DNA of 38,399 bases from Nitrosomonas ureae (lineage in GTDB: Bacteria > Pseudomonadota > Gammaproteobacteria > Burkholderiales > Nitrosomonadaceae), in assembly GCA_945872825.1 (NCBI GenBank), contig CAMCBD010000018.1, positions 1 to 38,399 of the forward strand. Direction: 5' to 3'. Of this stretch, positions 1 through 12,326 are shown in pieces. Within the stretch, counting starts at the first letter, position 1. Every line of letters begins with the position of its first letter. The position numbers were made by a program, and so were the translations under genes. The notes beneath the pieces were generated by a model that ran no database searches, was not told where the DNA came from, and was given only the letters and a program-made list of their open reading frames with translations.

Positions 1-1
1 C

Positions 2-76
2 TTTCATCAAGGTCTTGATAACCAAACTCCCAATGAGGTTTATTATCAATATCAAGCAATTCATCAGGCTGCCTGA
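2..76 (+). CDS. IS3-family transposase, C-terminal end only (cut by window edge)
   Basis: An open frame runs in from the left edge and stops with TGA at 74-76. Its 24 residues include FHQGLDNQTPNEVYY, which matches the extreme C-terminus of IS3-family orfB (DDE) transposases, where a 'HQGLxxxTPxEVY' tail follows the last catalytic Glu helix. The catalytic core would lie to the left, so whether the element is intact cannot be told. The inverted repeat of its right end probably lies in the following 100 bases but I could not define it. Confidence 0.6.
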   Translation, partial: FHQGLDNQTPNEVYYQYQAIHQAA

Positions 77-233
77 GCTTGATTAACTACCCATATCAGA
101 GCTTAATTCTACTCTCAGGTTGGACAGTTGCAGGAGACCACTTCAAACATCAATTCAATGGCAGTGATCATTTCTTTAGGATTCAACAACTGATCGTCGG
201 TGCTATAGGATAGGGTCATAAGATATCTCTCGC
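77..233. other. non-coding stretch between IS3 remnant and porin gene
   Basis: No gene is recognised. The stretch probably holds the right end of the IS3-type element (around 110-150) and then the 3' flank of the porin gene. A short open frame ending at about 213 has no recognisable similarity. Confidence 0.3.
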
Positions 234-1838
234 TCAAAATACAAAATTAAAATCCACCAGGAAGTTATTCGCATCACTTTTACCTGAGTAAATACTTTTC
301 ATAACATCACCGCCAAAAGCATGGCCGAAATAAAGCCGCCATGAGAATTGTTTGCTGTAGGTATGCATAAAACTGATGTCAACCAGTTGGCCGATATCGC
401 TATGACCACCGGAAGCATTTCCCGAATAACCAAATGCGTCAGCGCTCAACGCCGCACCCAAACCACCGTAGAGAAGATCGTTGGAATTGGCCAGTGATAA
501 CTGATGCAGGTTAATGTTCACTTGTGTCTTTGCCATAGGCGACGCGATGATCTCAATAAAAGCATCTTGTATATTCATCAGGTTATAGAAAGGAAATTTG
601 GCGTAAAGACGTCCGCTGGGAACCGCAGAAAAGAAAGTTTGGTGTTTGCCGTCTTGCGCATTCCTATCGCCGGAGCTGCGATAGTACACGGCGCGTAACC
701 ACGGTTTGAAAGGAAGTTTTGTCCATTGATAACCGGCTTCTGCGGCAATTGCCCAGGCTTGATGGGATTGATCAGTCCAGTTACCAAATTGATACGTTCC
801 CCATAATAGCCCATCGATACTGCCTGATTCCGTTTGATGAAGCGTCAGTAAGTGTGCGCCCAGGGTATGAATGTTTAATTTTTCTTGATTGAGTGAAGGT
901 CTTGCATTTGACGAACGATTGTCGATGACCTGCGTATCGCGCTGATCATCATAATTCATATAAAACAAACGGCCTTCCGTTCCTGGCAATAATGCATCTT
1001 TTTTGCTGGTAAGCGCTGTATAAAGTATATTGATGTCGCTGATTTGTTTTTGTCCCTGAACGGTGAGATTACCTTGAGTCGGACGAACTCCACTGACTGT
1101 CATATTGAAATCAGGGCGATCATAGACAACTGAGAAACCATCAAAACTACGTCCGACATAAATCGCATTAAATCCGCCGATAAGGCGTTTTGCGATACGT
1201 CTTCTTTTCAATCCATCGAATTTCTCATTTCCAGAGTCATATTCCATGCCCTCTATCAATTGGAATCGGCCCACTTTCACGAAGGCGCCTGGCAAGCCCA
1301 GATCATTAAACTTAAAGTTAAGATAGCCTTGTTTCAGAAATACATTACTTGCGTTAGCCGATTGATTGGCTAAAAAATAGGCTGCTCCCAGTCCTAAAGG
1401 ACCAACCGAGGGGGAAACCGCATCATTGGGAAGCCCATAAAGACCGCTATATTGCGCTTGTGCAAAACCATCTACATAGGGCGTAGATAGCATCGCCCCA
1501 AGTCTGGCGCGGAGCACCCACAAATCATACGAATTATTAACTGCCGGATTTGGCCTGAAGTAATTCCATGATTCATAACTGCTCATAAACTCACCATTGA
1601 TCCGCAAATATTGATTAATCTGTCCCAATGGTTTTGTTTCGCTCGTTGCTAAGGCAGTATCGACTGATAAAAATATAGTCATGACAAGATAAAAAGCCAA
1701 GGCCTTTAAATCTATTACAAATAATTGAGTAACAGTGCCGCTTTGGATTGTTATCAAGTAACCATTCAATTTCTGCGGTAGTGCTCCAAACAAGAAACTG
1801 TTAAATCGTTTCAGGAAAATTACTTGATTTATCGACAT
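234..1838 (-). CDS. Outer-membrane beta-barrel porin, alginate-export (AlgE-like) type
   Basis: A 534-residue protein with a hydrophobic, signal-like segment (about residues 45-64, ending DTALA before TSETK). The rest is rich in alternating aromatic/polar strands such as FVKVGRFQLIEG and GAHLLTLHQTESG. It ends in VDFNFVF, a terminal Phe of the kind recognised by the BAM complex. The pattern (YLRINGEF near the mature start, 'KVGRFQL.EGMEYDSGN' in the middle) fits the alginate-export family of 18-stranded barrels, whose substrates are often unknown. No TonB plug domain is visible. The first ~40 residues before the signal segment are unusual, so the true start may lie downstream. It is divergent from the hydrolase at 1903 with only 64 bp between them. 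Its neighbourhood suggests passage of a small molecule across the outer membrane for the thiocarboxylate-like cluster, but that is inference. Confidence 0.65.
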   Translation of the reverse strand: MSINQVIFLKRFNSFLFGALPQKLNGYLITIQSGTVTQLFVIDLKALAFYLVMTIFLSVDTALATSETKPLGQINQYLRINGEFMSSYESWNYFRPNPAVNNSYDLWVLRARLGAMLSTPYVDGFAQAQYSGLYGLPNDAVSPSVGPLGLGAAYFLANQSANASNVFLKQGYLNFKFNDLGLPGAFVKVGRFQLIEGMEYDSGNEKFDGLKRRRIAKRLIGGFNAIYVGRSFDGFSVVYDRPDFNMTVSGVRPTQGNLTVQGQKQISDINILYTALTSKKDALLPGTEGRLFYMNYDDQRDTQVIDNRSSNARPSLNQEKLNIHTLGAHLLTLHQTESGSIDGLLWGTYQFGNWTDQSHQAWAIAAEAGYQWTKLPFKPWLRAVYYRSSGDRNAQDGKHQTFFSAVPSGRLYAKFPFYNLMNIQDAFIEIIASPMAKTQVNINLHQLSLANSNDLLYGGLGAALSADAFGYSGNASGGHSDIGQLVDISFMHTYSKQFSWRLYFGHAFGGDVMKSIYSGKSDANNFLVDFNFVF

Positions 1839-1902
1839 AGTCCCGCTTAAATTATTTCTTTGTGCTACTTTCTTCTCAATTCAAAACAAAAATTAAATAA
1901 CC

Positions 1903-2688
1903 ATGGAACATATAACCTCCAAAGACGGCACTCCCATTGCCTGCTGGCATTGTGGCACTGGAATGCCACTGTTACTGATACACGGCACTACCGGGGATCA
2001 CTCCGCATGGGTATCAACACTCACTGAACTGCAGCAGCACTTCAATGTATGGACCATGGACCGGTGCGGACGCGGCCAGAGCGGCGATACTAGTAGCTAC
2101 GCTTTGGAGCGCGAGTGTGAAGATATCGCCACTGTCGTTGATGCGATCGGTGACAATGTCCATCTTCTCGGGCATTCTTTTGGCGGACTTTGTGCTTTGG
2201 AATCCACGCTTTTGACTTCAAACATTAATAAACTCATCCTTTATGAGCCATCGATCTCACTGGCAGGAAGCGGCTGGTCGACGGAACTTGAAATTCGGTT
2301 GCAAACGTTGCTGGATCAAGGAAATCGCGAAGAATCTCTGCTGCTGTTTCTTCGTGATCTGCTCAAAGCACCCAATCAGGAGATTGTTGCGCTGCAAGCG
2401 GGACCGAATTGGCCAATCCGAATTGCCGCAGCGCACACTATTCTGCGTGAGTTGCAAAGTATCGATCGCTATGTTTTTAAGCCACAAAGATTCCATTCGT
2501 TGCAAAATCCGGTTTTACTCCTGGTCGGCGGAGACAGTCATTCGCGCCGCTATGCTACTGCAGAAACACTTCAGCAAAGCTTGTCCAACAGCCGCATGGG
2601 CATTCTTCCCGGGCAGCAACATAGCGCCATGAGAACAGCGCCGGATTTGTTTGTTCATGAGGTTATAGAATTTCTTAAAGCGACATAG
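1903..2688 (+). CDS. Alpha/beta-fold hydrolase
   Basis: A 261-residue single-domain hydrolase. The oxyanion-hole region LLLIHGTTGDHSAW lies near residues 24-37. The nucleophile elbow is GHSFGG (Ser about residue 92). The acid is probably in the LLLVGGDSHSR strand and the catalytic His in GQQHSAM near residue 240. This is the size and layout of esterases, haloperoxidase-like enzymes and thioesterase-like hydrolases; the substrate cannot be read from the sequence. It is the only plus-strand gene in the block. It is divergent from the porin and convergent with the MFS gene 31 bp downstream, so it is not co-transcribed with the minus-strand cluster, although its position suggests a linked role such as hydrolysis of an ester or thioester intermediate. 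No clear Shine-Dalgarno sequence precedes the ATG. Confidence 0.8.
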   Translation: MEHITSKDGTPIACWHCGTGMPLLLIHGTTGDHSAWVSTLTELQQHFNVWTMDRCGRGQSGDTSSYALERECEDIATVVDAIGDNVHLLGHSFGGLCALESTLLTSNINKLILYEPSISLAGSGWSTELEIRLQTLLDQGNREESLLLFLRDLLKAPNQEIVALQAGPNWPIRIAAAHTILRELQSIDRYVFKPQRFHSLQNPVLLLVGGDSHSRRYATAETLQQSLSNSRMGILPGQQHSAMRTAPDLFVHEVIEFLKAT

Positions 2689-2719
2689 CAATCAACAATT
2701 AAAACAGGGCAATCTACAG

Positions 2720-3922
2720 TTACGTTAATGCTTGCACTCTATGCCGCCGCACCGATGCCAATATCACTGTCATCACACAAGCGGCACACAACACGCTGAT
2801 CAACGCTCCCCAACTCAACAGTAAATTGCCGGAATAACCGGACAATGCAGCATATAGTGGAGGCCCCAGCGCAAAACCAGAAAAGAAGGCAAACGAAACA
2901 TAGCTGGATGCGGTCGTCACTGGACCGAAAGCCTGGTCTCTGATCAACATACTCATTGCTATCGCATTAGTCCCCACGGCAGTCAGACCAACGCCAACTG
3001 CACCAACCCATAAGCGCCAGTGATTTTCCGGATCTGTATGCATGGTAACTGCCATGGCACAAGCGGCAATCGCGATGAGGCCGAAAAGCAGTAGTGATTC
3101 ATCCTTGAGCTTCGCGCCCATCGGCGTCAACATGATTCTGGAGAACATTCCCATGATCCCGAAAACAGCAATCAGCAAATCGGCCCAAAACAATGGCATG
3201 CCTTGTTGTGACGCAAAGGTTGGCAAGAAAGTGACGAATGCGGAGAGTGCTATGCCGACGCAAAACTGAATACCCATTAGCCACAGCAATAATGAGGTTG
3301 GGGCTGGGAATGTTAGCCCCTTGCCTGTTCTTGTGTGTTGCTTGGGAATAATAAGAAATGTCGTAATCCCAAATAGTACAGCCACTGGAACAATGATGCT
3401 AAACGCAGTACGCCAGCCATAATGAAACGCGATCGCAGGCAGCACCAAGCCAGCAAAAAGTGCTGCAAGCTGAACGCCAGACTGTTTAAGTCCTACTACT
3501 TTTGCTTTTTTCTCGGATGGAATCTGCTGTGCGATGAGTAAATTGGTGACCGGATTGGCAAGTGCTTGTGCGACCCCGCAAATCGCTGCAGCTACGACTA
3601 AGCCATAAAAATTTTCAGCCAGTGCAATCAGCGTAAAAGCGGCCGCAATGGCATAAAAAAGTACCAGCAATGCAGATCGCGAACTAATGTAATCGACAAT
3701 AGCGCCAGCGCACAGTGATAAAACGGCTGCCAAACCAAATGAACTCATCACCAGATAACCTAACAATTCCGGTTCGAAATGTAAATCCTGACTCAAAAGT
3801 GGTCCGAGTGTACTGGTGGCATATAAGATGAGCATGGGTAATGTCATCGCGAATACCAAAACAATTTGCAGCAGGCGTCCAACAATTGCTGAATTCGGTA
3901 ACTTACTGGAAGCTATTAACAT
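2720..3922 (-). CDS. Major facilitator superfamily transporter
   Basis: A 400-residue, very hydrophobic protein with about 12 transmembrane helices in two six-helix halves. Drug/metabolite exporter features include the loop between TM2 and TM3 (GAIVDYISSRSALL, a variant of the MFS motif A) and the TM5 region around GLKQSGVQLAALFAGL. It is the last gene of the minus-strand accessory cluster, 57 bp after the acyl-CoA dehydrogenase gene. In pdt-type thiocarboxylate loci an inner-membrane MFS protein (PdtE) moves the chelator. By analogy this one may export the cluster product or import its metal complex. Direction and substrate are inferred from context only. Confidence 0.8.
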   Translation of the reverse strand: MLIASSKLPNSAIVGRLLQIVLVFAMTLPMLILYATSTLGPLLSQDLHFEPELLGYLVMSSFGLAAVLSLCAGAIVDYISSRSALLVLFYAIAAAFTLIALAENFYGLVVAAAICGVAQALANPVTNLLIAQQIPSEKKAKVVGLKQSGVQLAALFAGLVLPAIAFHYGWRTAFSIIVPVAVLFGITTFLIIPKQHTRTGKGLTFPAPTSLLLWLMGIQFCVGIALSAFVTFLPTFASQQGMPLFWADLLIAVFGIMGMFSRIMLTPMGAKLKDESLLLFGLIAIAACAMAVTMHTDPENHWRLWVGAVGVGLTAVGTNAIAMSMLIRDQAFGPVTTASSYVSFAFFSGFALGPPLYAALSGYSGNLLLSWGALISVLCAACVMTVILASVRRHRVQALT

Positions 3923-3979
3923 TACGAATAACCTGAATAGAAAATCTCATCACCATTCAACTGACTTATTGAAATGAAA

Positions 3980-5182
3980 TCAGTCAAACGGATAAACAGT
4001 TTGTTGTTGATAATGATTAATGAGCCGGCGTCCTACCGAGCTGATCAGCGATTCATCATTTCCATCCAAAATACGGGATGTGCGCGCTATCCTATTGATA
4101 CCGTAAAGCGGTGTTAAATCGCTGAGACCTTCGGCGCCGTATAGTTGCATCGCGCAATCCGAAGCGATGCATAATGCGCGTGAAGCGGCCATTTTCGCGA
4201 CATTAATTGCGATTTCATTAGGATTTTGCGCATCAACACCGCGTGCAGCAATGCGGATGAGTTCGCGCGCGCTTACAATCGCCTGAAAAGTATTAAAGAT
4301 ATGCTGGCGCACGAGTTGTTTGTCAGCCAACCGGCTAAATTTGCCCCGTATTGAATGAATACGAACACCCATTAAATCCATGCACCGTTGTGCCAGCCCT
4401 ATCCAGTTCATGGACCGCAACAGCCGACCCAAACCGAGCCGCTTGTTCATTAAATCAAGACCGTTTCCCCGTGTGCCTAACAGATTATGCTCAGGCACTT
4501 GCACGGCATTGAAAGAAACCTCTCCCTGACCATACGAATGTCCCATCACCGTGAGTTGTCGCTCAATTTTGACTCCCGATGTATCCATCGGCACGATAAT
4601 CATCGAAAGCGCGCTGTTGAGCGCGGTATCTGCTTCGGCTGTCCGAACTAAAACAGTCATGAAAGTAGCCCGGTCTGCGTTGGAAATGAACCATTTTCTG
4701 CCATTGATATGCCAGCTTCCATTAGACAGTTGTGCAGTAGTCGTGATAAGGCTTGGAATCGAACCACTGTGACCAGGCTCTGTCATGCCATAACTCGGTA
4801 TGGCATCCCCGGTCACCATAAGCTCCAGAAATTGCCCACGAATCACTTCGTTACCGAATTTCAAAAGCATATGCGCATCAAGCGCAGTATGGCTGCCGAA
4901 GATCGCTTGAGAAAACTCTGTTCGCCCTTCCTGCTCTGCAATGATTAAATAATCTTCGAGAGAAGCTATTTTTCCGCCATGCGATAATGGATAAAACAAG
5001 CCGCATAATCCAGTCAGTCTTGCCTGATTCATCAAATCAACTTGCAAACGAAGGGAGGCCTCTCCCACTTCTGCTAACAGCGATTCGTTCGGAATAATCA
5101 CTTCATCGACAAATGCACTCACCTGGCGTGCAAGTGACCGGGCTAATTCCGTATGCGCTGCTTTTCTATTTTGCTCCGACAT
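3980..5182 (-). CDS. Acyl-CoA dehydrogenase family flavoprotein
   Basis: A 400-residue protein of usual ACAD length. The N-terminal helical domain is followed by the FAD/substrate signature YGMTEPGHSGS and NGRKWFISNA (about residues 132-170), then the C-terminal helical domain with GAEGLSD and ILDGNDES (about 371-378). At the position of the catalytic Glu of medium-chain ACADs (the 'YEGT' motif) this protein has Asp (LDG, Asp373), as in the ACAD10/11-like branch. It should use FAD to desaturate an acyl thioester. The ATG overlaps the stop codon of the acyl ligase gene upstream by one base (TAATG), with GAGGACA as a ribosome-binding site, so the two are translationally coupled and probably act on the same acyl group. 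As I recall, the pdt locus carries an acyl-CoA dehydrogenase at the equivalent place; this should be checked. Confidence 0.85.
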   Translation of the reverse strand: MSEQNRKAAHTELARSLARQVSAFVDEVIIPNESLLAEVGEASLRLQVDLMNQARLTGLCGLFYPLSHGGKIASLEDYLIIAEQEGRTEFSQAIFGSHTALDAHMLLKFGNEVIRGQFLELMVTGDAIPSYGMTEPGHSGSIPSLITTTAQLSNGSWHINGRKWFISNADRATFMTVLVRTAEADTALNSALSMIIVPMDTSGVKIERQLTVMGHSYGQGEVSFNAVQVPEHNLLGTRGNGLDLMNKRLGLGRLLRSMNWIGLAQRCMDLMGVRIHSIRGKFSRLADKQLVRQHIFNTFQAIVSARELIRIAARGVDAQNPNEIAINVAKMAASRALCIASDCAMQLYGAEGLSDLTPLYGINRIARTSRILDGNDESLISSVGRRLINHYQQQTVYPFD

Positions 5183-6864
5183 TAATATGTCCTCGGCGTA
5201 AGATCTGTGGTGCTCATCGTAGCCACATTACTTTTGAATCGCGTCATCTCCAGCTCGGTTGTCAGTTGTTTTTTATCAACTTTCCCTGCCGGACCCAGCG
5301 GCAGTTGCCTCAAGTAGCGCAAATACTCCGGCAGCTTGTTTTTTTCCAATCCTTGATCAAGCAAATAGCGAATGAATTGCGTTAAAGATGGCCGTTCGGC
5401 CCCGTCGCGCATGACCAGACAGAGGCAAATCCGATGACCCAAATCTTCATCAGCAACTGGTATGCAAACAGCGCTGACAACATCCAGGTGCGATGCGGCG
5501 ATATTCTCAATTTGTGCAGGGCTGATGTTGACACCCCCTCGAATAATAATTTCTTTTTTCCGCCCAGACAGAACCAGATACCCATCGTTATCGATGAATC
5601 CGAGATCTCCGGTATATACCCAGCCTTCCTTGTCACGATAAAGCGCGTCCAGCTCGGGATTATTCACATATTGCATCGGTGTTATGGGGCCTCTGGCGGC
5701 AACTTCACCAATACAACCTTGCGCCACTTCCTGCTTGTGATCATCGACAATTCTGATCGAACAAACATCTGGATTAGGCCAGCCAGCCTTATGCAAAATG
5801 ATTTCCAAACTATCCTCGAGAGTGGTATGACAATTAACGCCATCCGCCGATCCGTACAGACTGATAAAGCCACATTTGAATGCTTCGGAGCATCGGCGAA
5901 TCGAAGCTTCATCGATTTTTGCCCCACCGCTGATGATTGCGATCAGACTGGAAGTATCCGTTTCTGCCAAGTCCGGATCTGCAGCCATACGTTGAAACAT
6001 GGTGGGAACTCCAAAAATATGCGTTGGCTTAAGCTCCGCAATGGCGCGAATGGCAGTAGCAACATCAAATTGCCGCAGAACCAGCACCGACCCACCTAAC
6101 CAGGATAAAATACCGAATGTTGCGGTAGAACCAAACGCCGTTCCCAATGGCATCAAATAAAGCCCCCGGAAGGTACTGCCATCTGAGTGGATGCGTTGCA
6201 GAAACCGTCCTCGCCCGCCTGCCAATGCATTGTGAGAGTAAGCGATCCACTTGGGATCTGATTCTGTTCCCGAAGAGATTAAGAACCGGACCGGAGAATT
6301 GGGGTCGATTGCTGGCAATTGGCTCGATTCAATCGGCATGGATTGAAATAGTGAATCCATAGCATGCCAACCATCCCGCGCTTCACCGTCGACAATAAGA
6401 ATCCGCAGTGACAGTAAAGTGGGCCTCAATGATTCGATCAATTCGCATAAATCAATTTGAGCGAATTTTGGCTCAACAATAATAACGCGAGCATCACATC
6501 TGCTTAATAGTGATTGAATATCGAGTCGCCCGCGACCGGGTGGAAAAGGCGCAGCAATTGCGCCCAAGGCAGCTGCCGCCAGATCAATCGCACAGTGATA
6601 CCAACTATTACTAAGCTGATAGGCAATCACATCTCCCGCAACAACGCCTAAGGCACGTAAGCTGGCAGCCAAACAGGAAACCTTGTGTTGCAACGCAGCA
6701 TAAGTTATTGTTTTATCCAGAGAAATTACCGCTGCCTTTCCAGGATTCTGCTGCGCATGTTCGCAAAACAACGCGTATAAAGATTTGTTCGGATAAGCGC
6801 CATTCTGTATCCACTGATTGCGAATTTCAACAGGAACCAAATCTAAAATGCCCGAGTGATTCAT
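5182..6864 (-). CDS. AMP-dependent acyl-CoA/acyl-ACP synthetase (adenylate-forming ligase)
   Basis: An ANL-superfamily ligase of about 560 residues. Motifs in order: A3 phosphate loop ISSGTESDPKW (about residue 190, a variant of the usual TSGTTGxPK), A5 YGSADG, A7 YTGDLGFIDNDGY, the hinge KKEIIIRGGVNISPAQIE, and A10 PAGKVDKKQL with the catalytic Lys. It adenylates a carboxylic acid and transfers the acyl group to a thiol acceptor. In thiocarboxylate pathways the acyl-AMP is instead attacked by the sulfur of a thiocarboxylated carrier protein. The frame is open to a TTG at 6876, but the ATG at 6864 has GGAG eight bases upstream and makes a 4-bp ATGA overlap with the stop of the CoA-transferase gene, so I choose 6864. 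It is coupled on both sides to its neighbours. Confidence 0.85.
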   Translation of the reverse strand: MNHSGILDLVPVEIRNQWIQNGAYPNKSLYALFCEHAQQNPGKAAVISLDKTITYAALQHKVSCLAASLRALGVVAGDVIAYQLSNSWYHCAIDLAAAALGAIAAPFPPGRGRLDIQSLLSRCDARVIIVEPKFAQIDLCELIESLRPTLLSLRILIVDGEARDGWHAMDSLFQSMPIESSQLPAIDPNSPVRFLISSGTESDPKWIAYSHNALAGGRGRFLQRIHSDGSTFRGLYLMPLGTAFGSTATFGILSWLGGSVLVLRQFDVATAIRAIAELKPTHIFGVPTMFQRMAADPDLAETDTSSLIAIISGGAKIDEASIRRCSEAFKCGFISLYGSADGVNCHTTLEDSLEIILHKAGWPNPDVCSIRIVDDHKQEVAQGCIGEVAARGPITPMQYVNNPELDALYRDKEGWVYTGDLGFIDNDGYLVLSGRKKEIIIRGGVNISPAQIENIAASHLDVVSAVCIPVADEDLGHRICLCLVMRDGAERPSLTQFIRYLLDQGLEKNKLPEYLRYLRQLPLGPAGKVDKKQLTTELEMTRFKSNVATMSTTDLTPRTY

Positions 6865-8747
6865 TGAAAACTCCAAGGAGAAGCAACTCTGGTATAAGAT
6901 CCTGGAGTCAAGCGTGATCTCAAGCGCGTGTTGTTATGTAAATCTGTTAGATTCTCAATCACAACGGCGGCTGGAACACCAACTTGCTGCAGGATTGCAG
7001 CCCATTCTTCTGCAGTTTTTAACAGGAATAACTCACCCAAGCGCAGCTCAAGCTCTGCTGGTCCACTCTCCGCAACAATGCCAAGTGCTTGGATGAATCG
7101 CTGCATGGTTTTGTCGTCACAGCATTCAATCGCAATTTTCCCCTGTCGGGTCATATAGACCCCATTCAGTACGCTGCTTGAAATTGCATTGATATCGAAG
7201 GAATGATGCCGGTTTTGAAAGTCATCGGCACACAAGAATGTAGCAGCGCTCAGCAGCGACGAAGTCACTTTTGCACCGGCATTGTTCATACAGCGATTGA
7301 GCAAGGCGATGGTAATGCCTTGTGCCGCAATGACACCACCGAGCACATCCAGCAAGGTAAATAATGATCCGCCTTGAGTGCCGCATGTTTCGGAAATTTT
7401 CTGTGCTACACCGGAATAGGCTTGCACCATAAAGTCAGTGCCCGGTATGGCGTTTAATGGAGAAAATGTGCTTTCATCGGTTGTCCAACCGGCTGCATAG
7501 GCGTAAACCAGGGCTGGATTTAGATCCTTCAAATCGCAATAATCAAGATTTAATTGTGCAGCTTTGTTGGGGGCCCAATTGTGCAGAAAAACATCTGCAT
7601 ATCGAATCAGCTCTGCCATCTCAGCCTGGCCCGATGAGGACTTGATATCAATTTCACGAACTGTTTTCAGCCGGTTGATGGCATCGAAACGGGTGGAACA
7701 ACCTTCCGACATCGGCGGCATTCCACGTAACGGATCTCCGCCTGGGGGTTCTATTCGAATGACTTCAGCACCCAACAACGCAAGCAAGTGACCCGCCAGC
7801 GGACCTTGAATTCGGCGGCACGATTCAACAACCCTAAGCCCGCTGAGCGGGAGCGAATTGCTGGCCGGTTTTGCCTGAACATTATTGCCGTCCGTTTTAA
7901 AATCAAATGTCCACGATCCCTTAAGCCATTCATATTTGAAGTGTTCATCATCGAGCCTTACGTCGATTGTGCGTACCGGGCAAATAGACATGCCGGTGTT
8001 CGAACATAAAACCGAAATTTGCTGATACGTTACATTGGAAATTGCAGTAACCAATTCATTGGGAATAGGCGCAATAGCTCTGGCGTAGCGTAATAAAAAA
8101 GCGGTCCAGCCTTTACCTGCCAAGGTTGAGCTAACACCCAGCCGAGTCCAAAACTTTAACCAAGGATCCGCGCTCAGTGTTTCGAGTTCAAAGACAATAC
8201 CATCCGATGATACGAAAGGCGGTGCTGCTGGATACGCAATACTGCCCGGCAATAAGCGCTCAGGTGATTCTGCTGCCGTTGCGTCAGCAATATATTGTGT
8301 TTCACTGAGTAGGGCTGCAGATGCCATGGAAACACAGCTATTCGATATGCTGAGGCCTCGCAATTGACCAATTGCAGCAGCAACACCGCCCTGCAGGGCC
8401 AGTGCGGCGGTAACCGTTGAAACATAATTCAATCCCAGCGGTTGAGTTTTGCTGTTTGCTCGTCCATGTATCGACATAATGCCGCAAGCTGCTTGCATGA
8501 TGTTTTCGGAGAAAGCAGCCGGTTGATCACTATCATCCCACCCAATCACTTCGCAAGTAACCGGTGTGGTATAGGGCGTCTTAAATGCAAAAGATAGCAT
8601 TGCATTCGTCGCAGGATGATCACTGCATTCAATTTCCATCCCTAATGTACTGGATTGATAAAGCAACGAAAATGCTGTCGCAGCAAAATGAGCAGCTGGA
8701 TTTTTTAATGACCCTGCGATAACGCAATCATTTAATGGTTTATTCAT
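6861..8747 (-). CDS. CaiB/BaiF family (class III) CoA-transferase, double-domain
   Basis: A 628-residue protein, much longer than the ~400 residues of a single CaiB/BaiF enzyme. Residues about 301-628 form a standard class III CoA-transferase: SGLRVVESCRRIQGPLAG, the CoA-binding LGAEVIRIEPPGGDPLRG, and a PGTDFMVQAYSG motif whose Asp438 aligns with the catalytic aspartate that forms the acyl anhydride. Residues 1-300 look like a second, decayed copy of the same fold (FVSSDGIVFELE, LKFWTRLG, MSICPVRT resemble the family's C-terminal segment) without the Asp motif. It overlaps the ligase gene by 4 bp and follows the sulfur-carrier gene by 48 bp. It probably moves CoA between acyl groups in the same pathway. 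As I recall, pdt loci contain a CaiB-like gene beside the MoaD-like gene. Confidence 0.8.
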   Translation of the reverse strand: MNKPLNDCVIAGSLKNPAAHFAATAFSLLYQSSTLGMEIECSDHPATNAMLSFAFKTPYTTPVTCEVIGWDDSDQPAAFSENIMQAACGIMSIHGRANSKTQPLGLNYVSTVTAALALQGGVAAAIGQLRGLSISNSCVSMASAALLSETQYIADATAAESPERLLPGSIAYPAAPPFVSSDGIVFELETLSADPWLKFWTRLGVSSTLAGKGWTAFLLRYARAIAPIPNELVTAISNVTYQQISVLCSNTGMSICPVRTIDVRLDDEHFKYEWLKGSWTFDFKTDGNNVQAKPASNSLPLSGLRVVESCRRIQGPLAGHLLALLGAEVIRIEPPGGDPLRGMPPMSEGCSTRFDAINRLKTVREIDIKSSSGQAEMAELIRYADVFLHNWAPNKAAQLNLDYCDLKDLNPALVYAYAAGWTTDESTFSPLNAIPGTDFMVQAYSGVAQKISETCGTQGGSLFTLLDVLGGVIAAQGITIALLNRCMNNAGAKVTSSLLSAATFLCADDFQNRHHSFDINAISSSVLNGVYMTRQGKIAIECCDDKTMQRFIQALGIVAESGPAELELRLGELFLLKTAEEWAAILQQVGVPAAVVIENLTDLHNNTRLRSRLTPGSYTRVASPWSFQ

Positions 8748-8795
8748 GGTTATCGATGTTGTTATTTATCTGTGTAAAACAAATATAAAATCAGC

Positions 8796-9068
8796 TTATC
8801 CTCCGGCGACAGCGGGCAGAATGGTCAATACATCACCATCTTGCAAGCTTGTTGCGAGACCGTCACAAAAACGGATATCGTTATCGTTCACATAGATATT
8901 GATGAAACGATGAGCGGCCCCTCCAGCAATCAGCTTTGCTTTGATACCCGGAAACTGCTGCTCCATTTCATCGATAACTTCAGAAACTTTGAATCCACTC
9001 ATATTGATGCGTTTTTGATCATTCGTGAGCGGCCTTAATATGGTTGGAATAATTACTGTGATTGACAT
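8796..9068 (-). CDS. CysO/MoaD/ThiS-type ubiquitin-like sulfur carrier protein
   Basis: A 90-residue beta-grasp protein close in pattern to mycobacterial CysO: ITVIIPTILRPLT at the N-terminus, HRFINIYVNDNDIRF in the middle, and DGDVLTILPAVAGG as the exact C-terminus. The final Gly-Gly is adenylated by an E1-like enzyme and converted to a thiocarboxylate that donates sulfur. The stop codon follows directly after Gly-Gly (checked on the bases 8796-8807), so no C-terminal trimming is needed, unlike QbsE of thioquinolobactin synthesis. An AAGG ribosome-binding site lies about seven bases before the ATG. It is 137 bp downstream of the JAMM gene. A cysM-like cysteine synthase, the usual partner of CysO in actinobacteria, is absent from this window, which favours a role in special sulfur metabolism over general cysteine synthesis. 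Confidence 0.9.
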   Translation of the reverse strand: MSITVIIPTILRPLTNDQKRINMSGFKVSEVIDEMEQQFPGIKAKLIAGGAAHRFINIYVNDNDIRFCDGLATSLQDGDVLTILPAVAGG

Positions 9069-9205
9069 CGTTGCACCTTCTTTGAATAGCTTGTGTGGTT
9101 TAAAAATAATGCACCCAGACTGGATGGTTCGAATGGATGGGGATGCAGAAATTAACTTATTCCGATTCGATAACTGTTCAATCCGAGCTTCTTCTTGCGC
9201 TGGCT

Positions 9206-9649
9206 TTAGGCAACCATCTGTAATTCCAGTTCAGCTTGATACTGATGAACTATCCGGATTCTTTCTTCAATGATCATCCGATCGACAATACGGAAGCTGC
9301 GAATTTCCTCTTTATAGAGAAAATTCGTTGGAATAATGACGTAATGCGACTGGGGTTCGGTTGCAAATTCAACGTCGGTATGACTCGGATAGGCCTGAGA
9401 ATTGGTATGTGAATGATAGATGACAATGGGTTCTTCACAGCGCGCATCCATCTCTTTCCAGACCTGAAGTTGCTGTTGCGGATCAAATTGAAAAAAGTTA
9501 TCCGATTGCGCCACATTACGCATTGGGATTAGGTGTAATGGCAGATTCGATCCTGCGGGACCAGCGATGACACCACAGGTTTCAATTGGATGATCATTCA
9601 GTGCTTGAGTGATCATGGCATTAACCAGCTTAGAATGTATCGTCAACAT
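9206..9649 (-). CDS. JAMM (MPN+, M67) metalloprotease, Mec/QbsD/PdtG-like
   Basis: A 147-residue single-domain Mov34/MPN protein with a complete zinc site. Glu23 sits in PIETCGVIAG, and the HxH(x7)SxxD motif is YHSHTNSQAYPSHTD (His79, His81, Ser89, Asp92). Bacterial members next to sulfur-carrier genes either trim extra residues from the carrier (QbsD) or split carrier-amino-acid adducts (mycobacterial Mec releases cysteine from CysO-Cys). Here the neighbouring carrier already ends in Gly-Gly, so the second type of reaction is more likely. It lies between the MoeZ-like and carrier genes, the same order as pdtF-G-H and qbsC-D-E. Confidence 0.9.
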   Translation of the reverse strand: MLTIHSKLVNAMITQALNDHPIETCGVIAGPAGSNLPLHLIPMRNVAQSDNFFQFDPQQQLQVWKEMDARCEEPIVIYHSHTNSQAYPSHTDVEFATEPQSHYVIIPTNFLYKEEIRSFRIVDRMIIEERIRIVHQYQAELELQMVA

Positions 9650-9701
9650 AATTCCTAATCTCCTAAATATAAAAGGCTTATTGCCTGATCCATCAAATAA
9701 A

Positions 9702-9724
9702 TCTTATTTCCAGAAGAAATAAGA
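9702..9724. repeat. Perfect hairpin in the gap between moeZ-like and JAMM genes
   Basis: TCTTATTTC and GAAATAAGA are perfect 9-base arms around a 5-base loop (CAGAA). It lies in the 201-bp gap inside the cluster, 53 bases upstream of the JAMM start. There is no T-run directly after it on the minus strand, so it is not a typical terminator. It may be an mRNA-processing or attenuating hairpin, or chance in AT-rich DNA. Confidence 0.35.
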
Positions 9725-9850
9725 CCACATAAAACCCAACGTAAAAACTTACTTTTGATTGCCATGTGATGTTGAATACAGTGCTTACTTTGAAACGCAA
9801 CAAATACTGATTGCTAAAACCCAAAGTAACTTTTTTATTTTGATGCTTAT

Positions 9851-11023
9851 TTAATAGGTTGGCAGTGACTGATCGACATCTTTGATCCACGCAAGAATTC
9901 CACCGTCTAAACTTTTCACGTTGGTAAAACCATATTTCTGCATTTCAACGAGCACATCGCGAGAGCGCATCCCCATTTTGCAATGAAGGACAATGAAATC
10001 CTCTTTATTCATCGTGGCCAAAACTTCTTCCGACATTATTTGATTTTTCGGAATAAGCGTAGCGCCCTCAATATGGACGATATTCCATTCTTCGATGCCG
10101 CGAACATCGATGAGTTGGACATCGGTACCATTTTCTTTGATTGTTTTCAGCTCCCGCGCACTGATCACAGGGATATTGGTACGGCTATCATGGGCTGGGC
10201 GATCTACACCACAGAATCTTTGGTAGTCGATCAATTGAGTGATCGGGGTTCGCACCGGAGCTTTGTGCAGCGGAATAAACCGGTAGCTCATCTCCAGAGC
10301 ATCGTAGACAGCCAGACGCCCCAACATGGTTTCACCGATTCCGGTAATTAATTTAATCGCTTCTGTTGCCATCATGGCACCAATCGAAGCGCAAAGAATC
10401 CCCAATACACCGCCTTCTGCGCAGGATGGCGCCATTTCAGCTGGCGGTGGTTCTGGATACAAATCGCGGTAATTCAATCCCAACCCGCCAGGTGCATTTT
10501 CCCAGAAGACGGAAACCTGCCCTTCAAACCGGTAAATGGATCCCCATACATAGGGTTTCCCTGCCAAAACACAGGCATCGTTCACCAAATAGCGTGTAGC
10601 AAAATTATCTGTGCCATCCACAATCAGGTCATACTCTGAAATAATCTTTCCGGCATTGGTAGCTTCAAGCCGTTCACTGTGAAGCTGTACACGAACATAT
10701 GGATTCAATTCATTGATCGAGTCCCGCGCACTCTCAGATTTCAATCGGCTGATATCGGACTGACCGTGAATAATCTGTCTTTGCAGATTAGACTCATCCA
10801 CCACATCGAAATCAATGATACCCAATGTGCCAACCCCGGCTGCTGCGAGATAAAGTAGCGCCGGAGAACCTAATCCCCCGGCACCGATCACTAGAACCTT
10901 ACTGCTTTTGAGCCGCTTTTGACCTTCCAGACCCACTTCAGGAATTAATAAGTGACGGCTATAGCGTGAAATCTCGTGTTTACTCAACTCTTCTACAGGA
11001 CTAACTAATGGTGGTAATCGCAT
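9851..11023 (-). CDS. moeZ: MoeZ-like adenylyltransferase/sulfurtransferase (E1 domain plus rhodanese)
   Basis: A 390-residue two-domain protein. The ThiF/MoeB domain (about residues 15-255) has YSRHLLIPEVG, the nucleotide loop GAGGLGSP (48-55), GTDNFATRYLVND (137-149) and the conserved Cys201 in PSCAEGG. It lacks the two CxxC zinc pairs of E. coli MoeB, as do actinobacterial MoeZ proteins. The C-terminal rhodanese domain (about 285-388) has LIDVRGIEEW and the active loop HCKMGMRS with Cys348. It adenylates the Gly-Gly end of the carrier at 8796-9068 and then hands over persulfide sulfur from the rhodanese cysteine, making the thiocarboxylate. A GGGAG ribosome-binding site precedes the ATG. 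It is the first gene of the minus-strand cluster, preceded by a 412-bp gap holding a dyad. The symbol is by similarity; PdtF and QbsC are the analogous proteins of chelator pathways. Confidence 0.9.
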   Translation of the reverse strand: MRLPPLVSPVEELSKHEISRYSRHLLIPEVGLEGQKRLKSSKVLVIGAGGLGSPALLYLAAAGVGTLGIIDFDVVDESNLQRQIIHGQSDISRLKSESARDSINELNPYVRVQLHSERLEATNAGKIISEYDLIVDGTDNFATRYLVNDACVLAGKPYVWGSIYRFEGQVSVFWENAPGGLGLNYRDLYPEPPPAEMAPSCAEGGVLGILCASIGAMMATEAIKLITGIGETMLGRLAVYDALEMSYRFIPLHKAPVRTPITQLIDYQRFCGVDRPAHDSRTNIPVISARELKTIKENGTDVQLIDVRGIEEWNIVHIEGATLIPKNQIMSEEVLATMNKEDFIVLHCKMGMRSRDVLVEMQKYGFTNVKSLDGGILAWIKDVDQSLPTY

Positions 11024-11435
11024 AAAAACTCCCTATTCTCTCTAAATTCATTACCTTATCCAATGGACAGCGTAATTCACTTGCTACTCTGTCAGGTCAA
11101 AATTTACTGGCTCATGTTTCATGTATCGGCGTGCGCATCTCGATAAAGAAAAACACTTGCTGTAATTAAGTTCTGCGAAATTTAAATTAAACGAACGCAA
11201 TTGGGAATGCGACAAATTGCCGCGCGACATTTTGTCGCAGCAGCGAGCGGCTGGTTTCAGGTATGATTATTGAGAAGAAAATGCGGTAATTCGTAATTAA
11301 AAATATTGACTTACCAGATATCTTCCGGCACGGACAGGAATGGAAGAATGCTGATGGGCAGGAAAAAACAATCTCACTGATTTTTTGTGGGATCCCTAAA
11401 AATTCATTACTGGAAGTTCAAAACACAACGACACG
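11024..11435. other. 412-bp intergenic region, probable control region of the sulfur cluster
   Basis: No gene is seen. The stretch lies upstream of the moeZ-like gene and downstream of the hydrolase at 11436, both on the minus strand. It contains an inverted repeat (11208-11239, listed separately), a short palindrome CATG-TTT-CATG (11113-11123) and, on the minus strand, a -35-like TTGACC (11095-11100) without a convincing -10. It is the most likely place for the promoter of the seven-gene cluster. Confidence 0.4.
11208..11239. promoter_or_regulatory. Operator-like inverted repeat upstream of the moeZ-like gene
   Basis: TGCGACAAA (11208-11216) and TTTGTCGCA (11231-11239) are perfect 9-base inverted arms with 14 bases between them, so the arm centres are 23 bases apart, about two helix turns. 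This is typical of a dimeric regulator site. It lies about 190 bases before the moeZ-like start codon. No regulator gene is present in the window and I do not recognise the motif. Confidence 0.4.
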
Positions 11436-12326
11436 CTATTTCAAAATAAAATCCCGTACGATTCTAATCTGATTATCATCCATAAGCATCGGCGCATGAC
11501 CGATACCGGATAATTCGACGATTTTGGCTTTCGCACCACGCACTTGCATCTGTGCGGCAGTTCCAGCCGTTAATATATCCGATTCTGTTCCGCGCAAGAC
11601 CAAAGTAGGATTGGTTAATTTATCCCATTGCTCCCATAAATCAATATCTTTGATTTCACGATCTTTAAAGCTGATTGCAATTCTCGGATCATAGCGAAAA
11701 CCAAAGGATCCATCCGCATATTCGCGCGCACTGTGAATCGCCATATGATTCCACTGATCTTCAGTTAATGGACCAAAAGATGCAGAAATCACTTTCATGT
11801 ACTGTTTAAATTCTTCGAAACTAGCAAAGCGCGGATCTTTACCTACATAATCGGCAATTCTTTTCAGAGCAACCGCAGGAATCAACGGACCAATGTCGCT
11901 CAGTATCAATTTATTGATTGTAAAAGGCAGATTCGGTTGTATCGCCAGAATCATTCCAATTAATCCCCCCATGGAAATACCCACCCAATCCAACTTAATC
12001 TTTCTTTGGTATTGCGCCTGGATATGAACCACTAATGACATCGCGTCGGAGAGGTATAGCGGGTAATAATCATAGTCATGCGCATGCGCTAGCCAATCGC
12101 TTTGACCCCGCCCTACTACATCAACAGAAATTACCCTGCAATCCGATTGCAAGGCCTGCGCAAGGTAATCAAAATCACGGCAATTACGTGTTAATCCATG
12201 GACGCAGATGACAACATGTGGATTCTGCGGATCCCCCCAATCGGTATACGCAATATGATGCGGATCTTTTTGCTTGCCATCGGCCGATAACGTAGGGACA
12301 AGTAATCGATTGACTAATGTTTTCAT
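11436..12326 (-). CDS. Alpha/beta-fold hydrolase
   Basis: A 296-residue hydrolase. Features are the strand and oxyanion region VVICVHGLTRNCRDFDYL (about residues 38-55), GRGQSDW, the nucleophile elbow WVGISMGGLIG (Ser near residue 118), an acid strand LVLRGTESDIL and a C-terminal His in LSGIGHAPML. The layout resembles soluble hydrolases such as epoxide-hydrolase and 2-hydroxymuconate-semialdehyde-hydrolase relatives; the substrate cannot be told. It is separated from the sulfur cluster by 412 bp and is divergent from the LpxK-like gene, so it is probably an independent housekeeping-type gene. Confidence 0.8.
   Translation of the reverse strand: MKTLVNRLLVPTLSADGKQKDPHHIAYTDWGDPQNPHVVICVHGLTRNCRDFDYLAQALQSDCRVISVDVVGRGQSDWLAHAHDYDYYPLYLSDAMSLVVHIQAQYQRKIKLDWVGISMGGLIGMILAIQPNLPFTINKLILSDIGPLIPAVALKRIADYVGKDPRFASFEEFKQYMKVISASFGPLTEDQWNHMAIHSAREYADGSFGFRYDPRIAISFKDREIKDIDLWEQWDKLTNPTLVLRGTESDILTAGTAAQMQVRGAKAKIVELSGIGHAPMLMDDNQIRIVRDFILK

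Follow-up and report, generated by a model that had tools for sequence, protein, structure and literature searches.

Known Thiocarboxylate Systems and the Studied Locus

Very few natural thiocarboxylic acids are known, according to the work on thioplatensimycin, in which PtmA3 makes an aryl-CoA and PtmU4 makes the thioacid with a carrier protein as the sulfur donor. Mutants of PtmU4 Asp430 were 125- to 400-fold less active, the carrier, E1, and JAB genes lie elsewhere in the genome in the platensimycin case, and QbsD is described as trimming capped carriers (PMC6006322). The Pseudomonas pdt cluster for pyridine-2,6-dithiocarboxylic acid (PDTC) is given as the gene string pdtCKPELMFGHIJON (PMC7415375), and Iyer et al. 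(2006) placed Nitrosomonas europaea and Nitrosospira multiformis in the PDTC/quinolobactin class in row 4a of their Table 1 (PMC1779556). We analyzed a stretch of Nitrosomonas ureae DNA of 38,399 nucleotides (contig CAMCBD010000018.1; the whole stretch is called the window), which carries a seven-gene cluster at 2720-11023. This cluster is likely to encode a thiocarboxylic acid (thioacid) pathway, and the explanation that best accounts for it as a whole is, in our judgment, probably a dedicated pathway of this kind with a metallophore as the likeliest class of product.

Gene Content and Key Residues of the Cluster

A preliminary description of this DNA had proposed seven minus-strand genes, and their coordinates, order, and families were borne out by the open reading frames (ORFs), Pfam, and NCBIfam. 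The long two-domain CoA-transferase is labeled COAT here.

9851..11023, minus strand: MoeZ-like E1 (ThiF) with rhodanese domain, counterpart of PdtF/QbsC (PF00899, E 7.8e-78; PF00581, E 1e-16)
9206..9649, minus strand: JAMM/JAB protease, counterpart of PdtG/QbsD (PF14464, E 4.5e-28)
8796..9068, minus strand: ThiS/MoaD-like sulfur carrier ending in PAVAGG, counterpart of PdtH/QbsE (PF02597, E 6.6e-16)
6861..8747, minus strand: COAT, 628 amino acids, with catalytic Asp D438 (PF02515 in two stretches, E 1.1e-68)
5182..6876, minus strand: acyl/aryl-acid ligase of the PtmA3/PdtJ kind, 564 amino acids (PF00501, E 5.1e-54, with the AMP-binding C-terminal domain)
3980..5182, minus strand: acyl-CoA dehydrogenase with D373 (Pfam Acyl-CoA_dh N, M, and C domains)
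2720..3922, minus strand: MFS transporter, probably the product exporter (PF07690, E 6.4e-36)

The first three genes had been said to follow the order of pdtF-G-H and qbsC-D-E. This agreed with the published pdt gene kinds, and the match extended over F-G-H-I-J when the window order was set against the gene string (PMC7415375) and the gene kinds of Iyer et al. (PMC1779556). As in a thioacid cassette, the ligase gene adjoins and overlaps the COAT gene, and the E1, carrier, and protease genes lie in the same cluster. The abutting of the ligase, COAT, and dehydrogenase genes was confirmed as an overlap of the COAT stop and ligase ATG in ATGA at 6861-6864 (an ATG start of the ligase at 6864 is possible) and of the ligase stop and dehydrogenase start in TAATG at 5182. 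The name CaiB-type given to the CoA-transferase holds for the PF02515 family but not for the architecture, which is of the two-domain, 628-residue kind and not that of an ordinary CaiB. The central proposal of the preliminary description, a pdt/qbs-like thiocarboxylate pathway with its own product, was supported.

Key residues were examined in alignments of the carrier, JAB, E1, COAT, ligase, and dehydrogenase proteins, whose rows contain a few duplicate loci. In the E1 protein, which scored 631.7 bits to NF005902 (MoeZ) against a cut-off of 647, C201 and the rhodanese C348 were conserved at 97% or more across 60 rows. The JAB protease, the sole Prok-JAB match in its own genome, carried the HxHx10D motif as did all others (60/60 rows) and would trim the sulfur carrier wherever the latter is capped. 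The C terminus of the carrier was a bare VAGG in 44 of 60 rows, including the window, and bore extra residues in the other 16; both states occurred within ammonia-oxidizing bacteria (AOB), as would be expected if the protease trims capped carriers in the manner of QbsD. The genome has three ThiS-domain matches: this carrier, a 77-residue ThiS-like ORF, and a stretch of a 704-residue ORF. COAT D438 was conserved at 97% or more in 61 rows, corresponded to PtmU4 Asp430, and lay opposite an Asp in three solved one-domain chains. On homology, the sulfur-transfer chemistry is well supported.

The nearest solved chains of the ligase were salicylate-AMP and 2,3-dihydroxybenzoate (DHB)-AMP ligases and a fatty-acid ligase. 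Within the stretch YGSADGVNCH (341-350), D345 was found in 61/61 proteobacterial and 42/45 actinobacterial rows, the remaining three showing two Glu and one gap, and Glu occupied the position in all three aryl-acid ligases aligned; the two Glu rows are probably those of two distant upstream actinobacterial ligases. DhbE has an Asn that contacts the substrate hydroxyls, and it lies opposite a two-residue gap in the alignment of the window ligase, so this contact would not be kept. The dehydrogenase had Asp at D373 in 56/56 rows, where MCAD-type enzymes have Glu; its best solved relatives were the ACAD11 structures 8v3u and 2wbi, and ACAD11 shares the Asp. The dN/dS ratios of the seven genes, together with the hydrolase and porin genes described below, were 0 to 0.25 against four relatives (L021, L022, L031, and L023) where dS could be estimated (it was saturated for JAB against L023); judged by these sequence comparisons, the cluster genes are under purifying selection.

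Conservation of the Cluster in Relatives

Relatives were searched for with COAT over named genomes, and the best 80 of at least 564 confirmed relatives were used. They include N. europaea ATCC 25978 (L033), an N. eutropha assembly, Nitrosospira, Nitrosovibrio, two Methylococcales assemblies, Ralstonia, Rugamonas, Hahella, Acidovorax, Pseudomonas, and many Actinomycetota. Loci were selected on COAT alone, with the presence of other genes not built in, and the window proteins were placed on them by tblastn. The gene-order table comprises 23 distinct AOB/methanotroph loci (two duplicate rows removed) and 29 other proteobacterial loci (five duplicates removed); three qbs-like loci (L029, L109, and L147), the truncated contig L028, and the Actinomycetota stand outside it.

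The order MoeZ-JAB-carrier-COAT-ligase-dehydrogenase-MFS was colinear on one strand in 23/23 AOB/methanotroph loci and 26/29 others, the MFS gene coming next after the dehydrogenase gene in all 23 + 26. The exceptions were L046, with a distant dehydrogenase elsewhere, and L162 and L164, without this kind of dehydrogenase or MFS gene. The association of the seven genes is more than chance. The preliminary description had asked whether relatives of the COAT, ligase, and dehydrogenase belong to ordinary fatty-acid or carnitine loci; they adjoin carrier, E1, and JAB genes in 23/23 and 26/29 loci, and an ordinary CaiB locus of that type was rejected because of the two-domain COAT and its linkage to carrier genes.

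COAT was found in 35/125 genomes of the family (two of four genera), and a search of 37 genomes of the same genus gave it in 9, including its own. The synteny comparison with other Nitrosomonadaceae that had been suggested showed the same gene order in all AOB loci compared. The whole gene set is present in the N. europaea ATCC 25978 assembly. Among other members of the order, 11 of 24 had only weaker matches, to the second domain (best E 9e-31), and in 369 genomes drawn from the class a match at E 1e-60 occurred in the own genome only. At E 1e-100, COAT was present in 17/398 genomes of one Pseudomonas genus and in 12/398 of the P. otitidis family, the two sets sharing some genomes. In the 46 actinobacterial COAT loci, a ligase match followed COAT directly in 43, was distant and upstream in two, and was lacking in one; a dehydrogenase match was present in 12, and no carrier, E1, or JAB match was found near COAT, which resembles the platensimycin case. 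Three of these loci (L064, L068, and L105) have COAT, ligase, and dehydrogenase in a row with no linked carrier module and may be the nearest relatives of the pathway in Actinomycetota.

At least four cluster types can be told apart: AOB/methanotroph, TonB, PigD/PigE, and qbs-like. PigD and PigE act in prodigiosin pyrroline synthesis. Their homologues adjoin the thioacid block in Pseudomonas-type loci, including L048 (2792-7761), L049, L051, L052, L055, L057-L059, L061, and L062 and also L140-L146, L148-L153, L162, L164, L166, and L167, most of which have an O-methyltransferase and a second MFS gene as well. In L048, the scores were 1429 bits for NF053554 (over the cut-off) and 663 bits for NF053552 (under the cut-off of 950). 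A literature search for PigD/PigE together with thiocarboxyl and rhodanese gave no match. The methanotroph assemblies L063 and L044 carry the same AOB-type cluster, hydrolase and porin included; the L063 contig looks genuine, judged by one flanking gene with matches in 18/30 relatives (best identity 85%).

Genes Beyond the Core

The range 2720-11023 of the preliminary description contains the seven genes but leaves out conserved neighbors; the cluster extends further, and the hydrolase, porin, and c3 belong to it.

1903..2688, plus strand: alpha/beta hydrolase (PF12697, E 2.8e-18)
234..1838, minus strand: alginate-export-family protein, a presumed outer-membrane beta-barrel (porin; PF13372, E 1.5e-27)
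145..237, minus strand: 5′ end of c3, about 31 codons of a predicted GH88-fold protein, with the remainder on contig C144
1..144, no strand assigned: end of an insertion sequence, a repeat in the own genome, that interrupts c3 and terminates the contig

In the AOB/methanotroph loci, the block is accompanied by the opposite-strand hydrolase (21/23), the porin (22/23), c3 (22/23, the window copy being broken), and the amidohydrolase c20 (20/23; the window and L040 end before its place). Neither the hydrolase nor the porin was found in the 29 others, whereas c3 was present in 24 of them and thus belongs to the core. For c20 (L021:1466-2734 and homologues), a His-rich stretch of varying sequence was present in all 18 distinct loci read out of the 20 that carry it (L033 and L036 were not among the 18), which suggests metal binding.

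No Pfam match was obtained for c3 at 0.001, GH88 itself giving only E 0.16. The predicted structure of the intact L031 copy (pLDDT 91) matched unsaturated glucuronyl hydrolase (UGL) in Foldseek, with Z 42 to 2fv0/1vd5 over 342-344 residues, and a profile from 30 c3 proteins matched the same enzyme with E 5e-23; the model thus has the six-hairpin fold of GH88. The catalytic Asp residues of Bacillus UGL are D88 and D149. In the profile alignment, c3 has an invariant Asp at the place of D149 and a consensus Ser at that of D88, so it is probably no ordinary glycosidase.

In the window's genome, c3 is interrupted by a high-copy insertion sequence. The gene starts at 237, and the match stops near 145, with the rest on contig C144. 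In the own genome, window positions 1-150 match at least 40 places (scoring covered 40 of the 63 candidates), and 20 of these begin at contig base 1-3. At the junctions, the element ends in TG...CA, and 3 bases appear to be duplicated, which we take to fit the IS3 family.

Proposed Pathway

The gene content, order, conservation, and key residues, together with the receptor linked in relatives, suggest the following scheme, in which each reaction, the substrates, and the metal role are proposals. In the first step, the rhodanese/E1 protein would adenylate the Gly-Gly end of the carrier and turn it into a thiocarboxylate, the JAMM protease first exposing Gly-Gly on capped carriers. In the second, the ligase would use ATP and CoA to activate a small carboxylic acid, probably an aryl or heteroaryl one. 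In the third, COAT would hold the acyl group on D438, swap CoA for the carrier sulfur, and release the thioacid (R-COSH). The dehydrogenase may oxidize the acyl-CoA, by aromatization or desaturation, and c3 probably acts on the precursor ring, although this is speculative. The product would be exported by the MFS protein and, in AOB, also through the outer-membrane barrel. Re-import of the metal-loaded form by a TonB receptor is suggested by the linkage of such receptors in sister lineages, which makes a metallophore the likeliest class. With c3 interrupted, the native product may not be completed in the window's strain.

Linked TonB Receptor and Possible Metal Role

The preliminary description had seen no TonB receptor. 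This holds for the 38-kb window, in which no linked receptor matched, but a receptor is linked in relatives. Homologous linked TonB receptors were found in 10/23 AOB/methanotroph loci, namely nine AOB loci (eight of Nitrosospira/Nitrosovibrio and L026 of the window's genus) and the methanotroph L063, and in 5/29 others. The receptors of L032 and L026 were confirmed as such by Pfam. The nine AOB receptors were 58-68% identical to the block-side receptors of Hahella (L047) and Rugamonas (L046), 60-65% to that of Paracidovorax (L056), and 45-51% to those of Acidovorax (L054) and P. aegrilactucae (L060). The block-side receptors of N. eutropha (L036) and Ralstonia (L045) gave no match to the linked AOB receptors. 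For five receptors tested, the best NCBIfam match was the TonB-siderophore subfamily, below its cut-off. In N. aestuarii (L024:1864 and L041:4625), an AAA/ankyrin-repeat protein stands upstream of the block, at the place of the Nitrosospira receptor.

A co-inherited linked TonB receptor favors re-uptake of a metal complex, and a metallophore would be the likeliest use of the product among those considered. N. europaea is reported as chrome azurol S (CAS)-negative both in the presence and in the absence of iron (PMC3050691), a result that speaks against a simple iron siderophore under the conditions of growth. According to a 2022 review, N. europaea ATCC 19718 has no siderophore or chalkophore biosynthesis; the review also reports aerobactin genes in N. 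eutropha, so AOB are not uniformly siderophore-less (PMC9693385). Taken together, the negative CAS result and this statement shift attention to copper or to some other use of the product. A literature search on N. europaea gave no expression evidence on the cluster genes. Tentatively, and as a rather unlikely extension, the product could be a thiocarboxylate chalkophore common to betaproteobacterial AOB and some gammaproteobacterial methanotrophs, exported by the MFS protein and porin and recovered through the TonB receptor, that would supply copper to ammonia or methane monooxygenase. If so, it would represent a metallophore class outside methanobactin, in organisms described as lacking siderophore or chalkophore biosynthesis, such as N. 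europaea.

Loss of the Cluster

In a tree of COAT and ligase built by a quick method from 68 rows (L028 and 38 of the 46 actinobacterial loci left out; L147, L029, L109, and L060 among those flagged for long branches), the AOB and the two methanotroph loci grouped in a single supported clade, within which Nitrosospira/Nitrosovibrio and most Nitrosomonas made up subclades. JAB was present in 42/125 family genomes and accompanied COAT in 34/35; the one genome lacking it, G003, has a COAT gene truncated where its 5.4-kb contig begins. In the eight JAB-only genomes (L178-L185), JAB was 66-83% identical to that of the window, and COAT and the ligase were gone. All eight neighborhoods consist of remnants (JAB-carrier-c3, JAB-carrier-c20, JAB-dehydrogenase, or JAB alone), and those of L178, L179, L181, and L182 adjoin abh2, a gene flanking the window's cluster. 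The cluster was evidently lost repeatedly in the family, and the JAB-only genomes represent either decay or a leftover role for JAB and the carrier.

Weighing of Alternative Explanations

Several observations weigh against the proposed pathway or its metal role. The linked TonB receptor has no match in the 38-kb window, and 13/23 AOB/methanotroph loci and 24/29 others lack it nearby. No Fur-box excess was found upstream of MoeZ, porin, and hydrolase, with means of 11.6, 11.0, and 11.6 of 19 positions compared with 11.3, 10.7, and 11.4 in shuffled sequences (30 base shuffles per sequence), and the negative CAS result points the same way. The window carrier is uncapped, leaving the protease without an obvious capped substrate here, and c3 is broken in this genome. 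The top NCBIfam matches of the ligase were long- and medium-chain fatty-acid ligases (283 and 277 bits), ahead of the DHB-AMP ligase (237 bits), all below cut-off, so an aryl substrate is not certain. Finally, the eight related genomes that keep JAB without COAT, some with the carrier and c3, would suit a second role of these genes.

It is quite possible, though we lean against it, that the pathway no longer completes its product in the window's strain, the insertion sequence in c3 also severing the downstream part. The junctions of the insertion on two contigs and the repeated decay of the locus in relatives are consistent with this, whereas none of the seven core genes is disrupted, their dN/dS is low, and some loci lack c3 altogether.

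Somewhat doubtful, but to be taken seriously, is that the product of the thioacid pathway serves as antibiotic, signal, or thioester building block, not as a metal chelator. This cassette is also used for the antibiotic thioplatensimycin and is described in the yatakemycin cluster (PMC6006322). The block in Pseudomonas is linked to PigD/PigE-like genes in loci without a linked-TonB match, and the Fur-box and CAS results agree with such a product. Set against it are the homologous TonB receptors in the 10/23 and 5/29 loci and the fact that PDTC and (thio)quinolobactin are termed siderophores (PMC6006322, PMC1779556). As a separate observation, L162, of the PigD/PigE type, has another TonB receptor.

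It is improbable that the cluster makes PDTC or a close relative of it, with dihydrodipicolinate from lysine biosynthesis as the starting material. Such a route would need no extra ring-forming gene; the dehydrogenase would perform the aromatization, and c3 would handle the six-ring precursor. The pdt-like F-G-H-I-J order speaks for it; the dehydrogenase and c3 genes accompany the block, and the predicted fold of c3 is, by analogy, that of enzymes acting on an unsaturated six-ring carboxylate. However, pdt additionally comprises C, K, P, E, L, M, O, and N (PMC7415375), and c3 is broken in the window and missing in 5/29 other loci.

Least probable is that the carrier, E1, and JAB serve cysteine synthesis (CysO/CysM/Mec-like) or protein modification (SAMP-like) beside an unrelated operon of acyl genes: the only NCBIfam match of JAB is indeed desampylase (61.8 bits against a cut-off of 130) and some relatives retain JAB and carrier without COAT and ligase, but the strict colinearity with COAT, ligase, dehydrogenase, and MFS genes, the co-occurrence of JAB in 34/35 COAT genomes, and remnants holding dehydrogenase or c20 pieces, as decay would leave, oppose it. 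No cysteine synthase was found among the ten proteins scanned at 234-12326, the genome not having been searched for one.

Comparison With Known Systems

A dedicated thioacid pathway remains the reading we prefer, and the thioplatensimycin/thioplatencin cassette (PtmA3 and PtmU4 with PtmS1, PtmS2/3, and PtmS4) shares with the window the carrier, the JAMM protease, the MoeZ-like E1, and the catalytic Asp in the second domain. The likeness to PtmA3 and PtmU4 is one of family, architecture, and this Asp. The window differs in having all parts in one colinear cluster, with a dehydrogenase, an MFS protein, c3, a porin, and a hydrolase in addition.

The qbs cluster of Pseudomonas (thioquinolobactin) shares the E1/JAB/carrier trio and the COAT-ligase pair. 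It has a ligase-methyltransferase arrangement and a carrier capped as GG-CF. The 564-residue window ligase gave no methyltransferase match and thus lacks this arrangement, and the window carrier ends in GG, unlike the GG-CF end of the qbs-like L147. L029, L109, and L147 have a tryptophan dioxygenase, an aminotransferase, and a methyltransferase match, the last of these right after the ligase (in L029 within a 916-residue ORF), and their COAT and ligase are 36-39% identical to those of the window. One of the three lies on a Burkholderia multivorans replicon, and the L147 genome also carries a PigD/PigE-type locus (L146). No tryptophan/kynurenine ring-forming genes were among the ten proteins scanned at 234-12326; L029, L109, and L147 have such genes.

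The pdt cluster contains the same gene kinds as the window from F to J. Its TonB receptor is encoded by pdtK; the window has no match to a receptor, and relatives of the window cluster have a linked one. No authentic pdt locus was recognizable as pdtCKPELMFGHIJON in the Pseudomonas neighborhoods read (14 of 18 places; 4 of 12 genomes; the stretch around L060), which were of the PigD/PigE, TonB, or qbs-like type.

A literature search for Nitrosomonas with thiocarboxylic returned Iyer et al., whose neighborhood comprises E1-rhodanese, JAB, ThiS-like, CaiB-like, and AMP-ligase genes, as in the window, and very probably corresponds to the window's locus in N. europaea and N. multiformis; the core neighborhood is therefore not new and has been in print for these two species since 2006 (PMC1779556). 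The dehydrogenase, MFS protein, c3, porin, hydrolase, and receptor are not named in that description (PMC1779556). To this, our analysis adds the full extent of the cluster, the distinction of at least four types, c3 and the linked receptor (both of which offer handles for further work), the loss of the locus on repeated occasions, and the insertion in c3. A gene set for a rare sulfur-containing acid, of a chemical group that occurs in bacterial metal scavengers, appears to be present in many AOB, including N. europaea, in contrast with the 2022 review. If its product is a metallophore, the metal supply of nitrifiers and methanotrophs needs rethinking, and even if it is not, a new thioacid could come to light in N. 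europaea.

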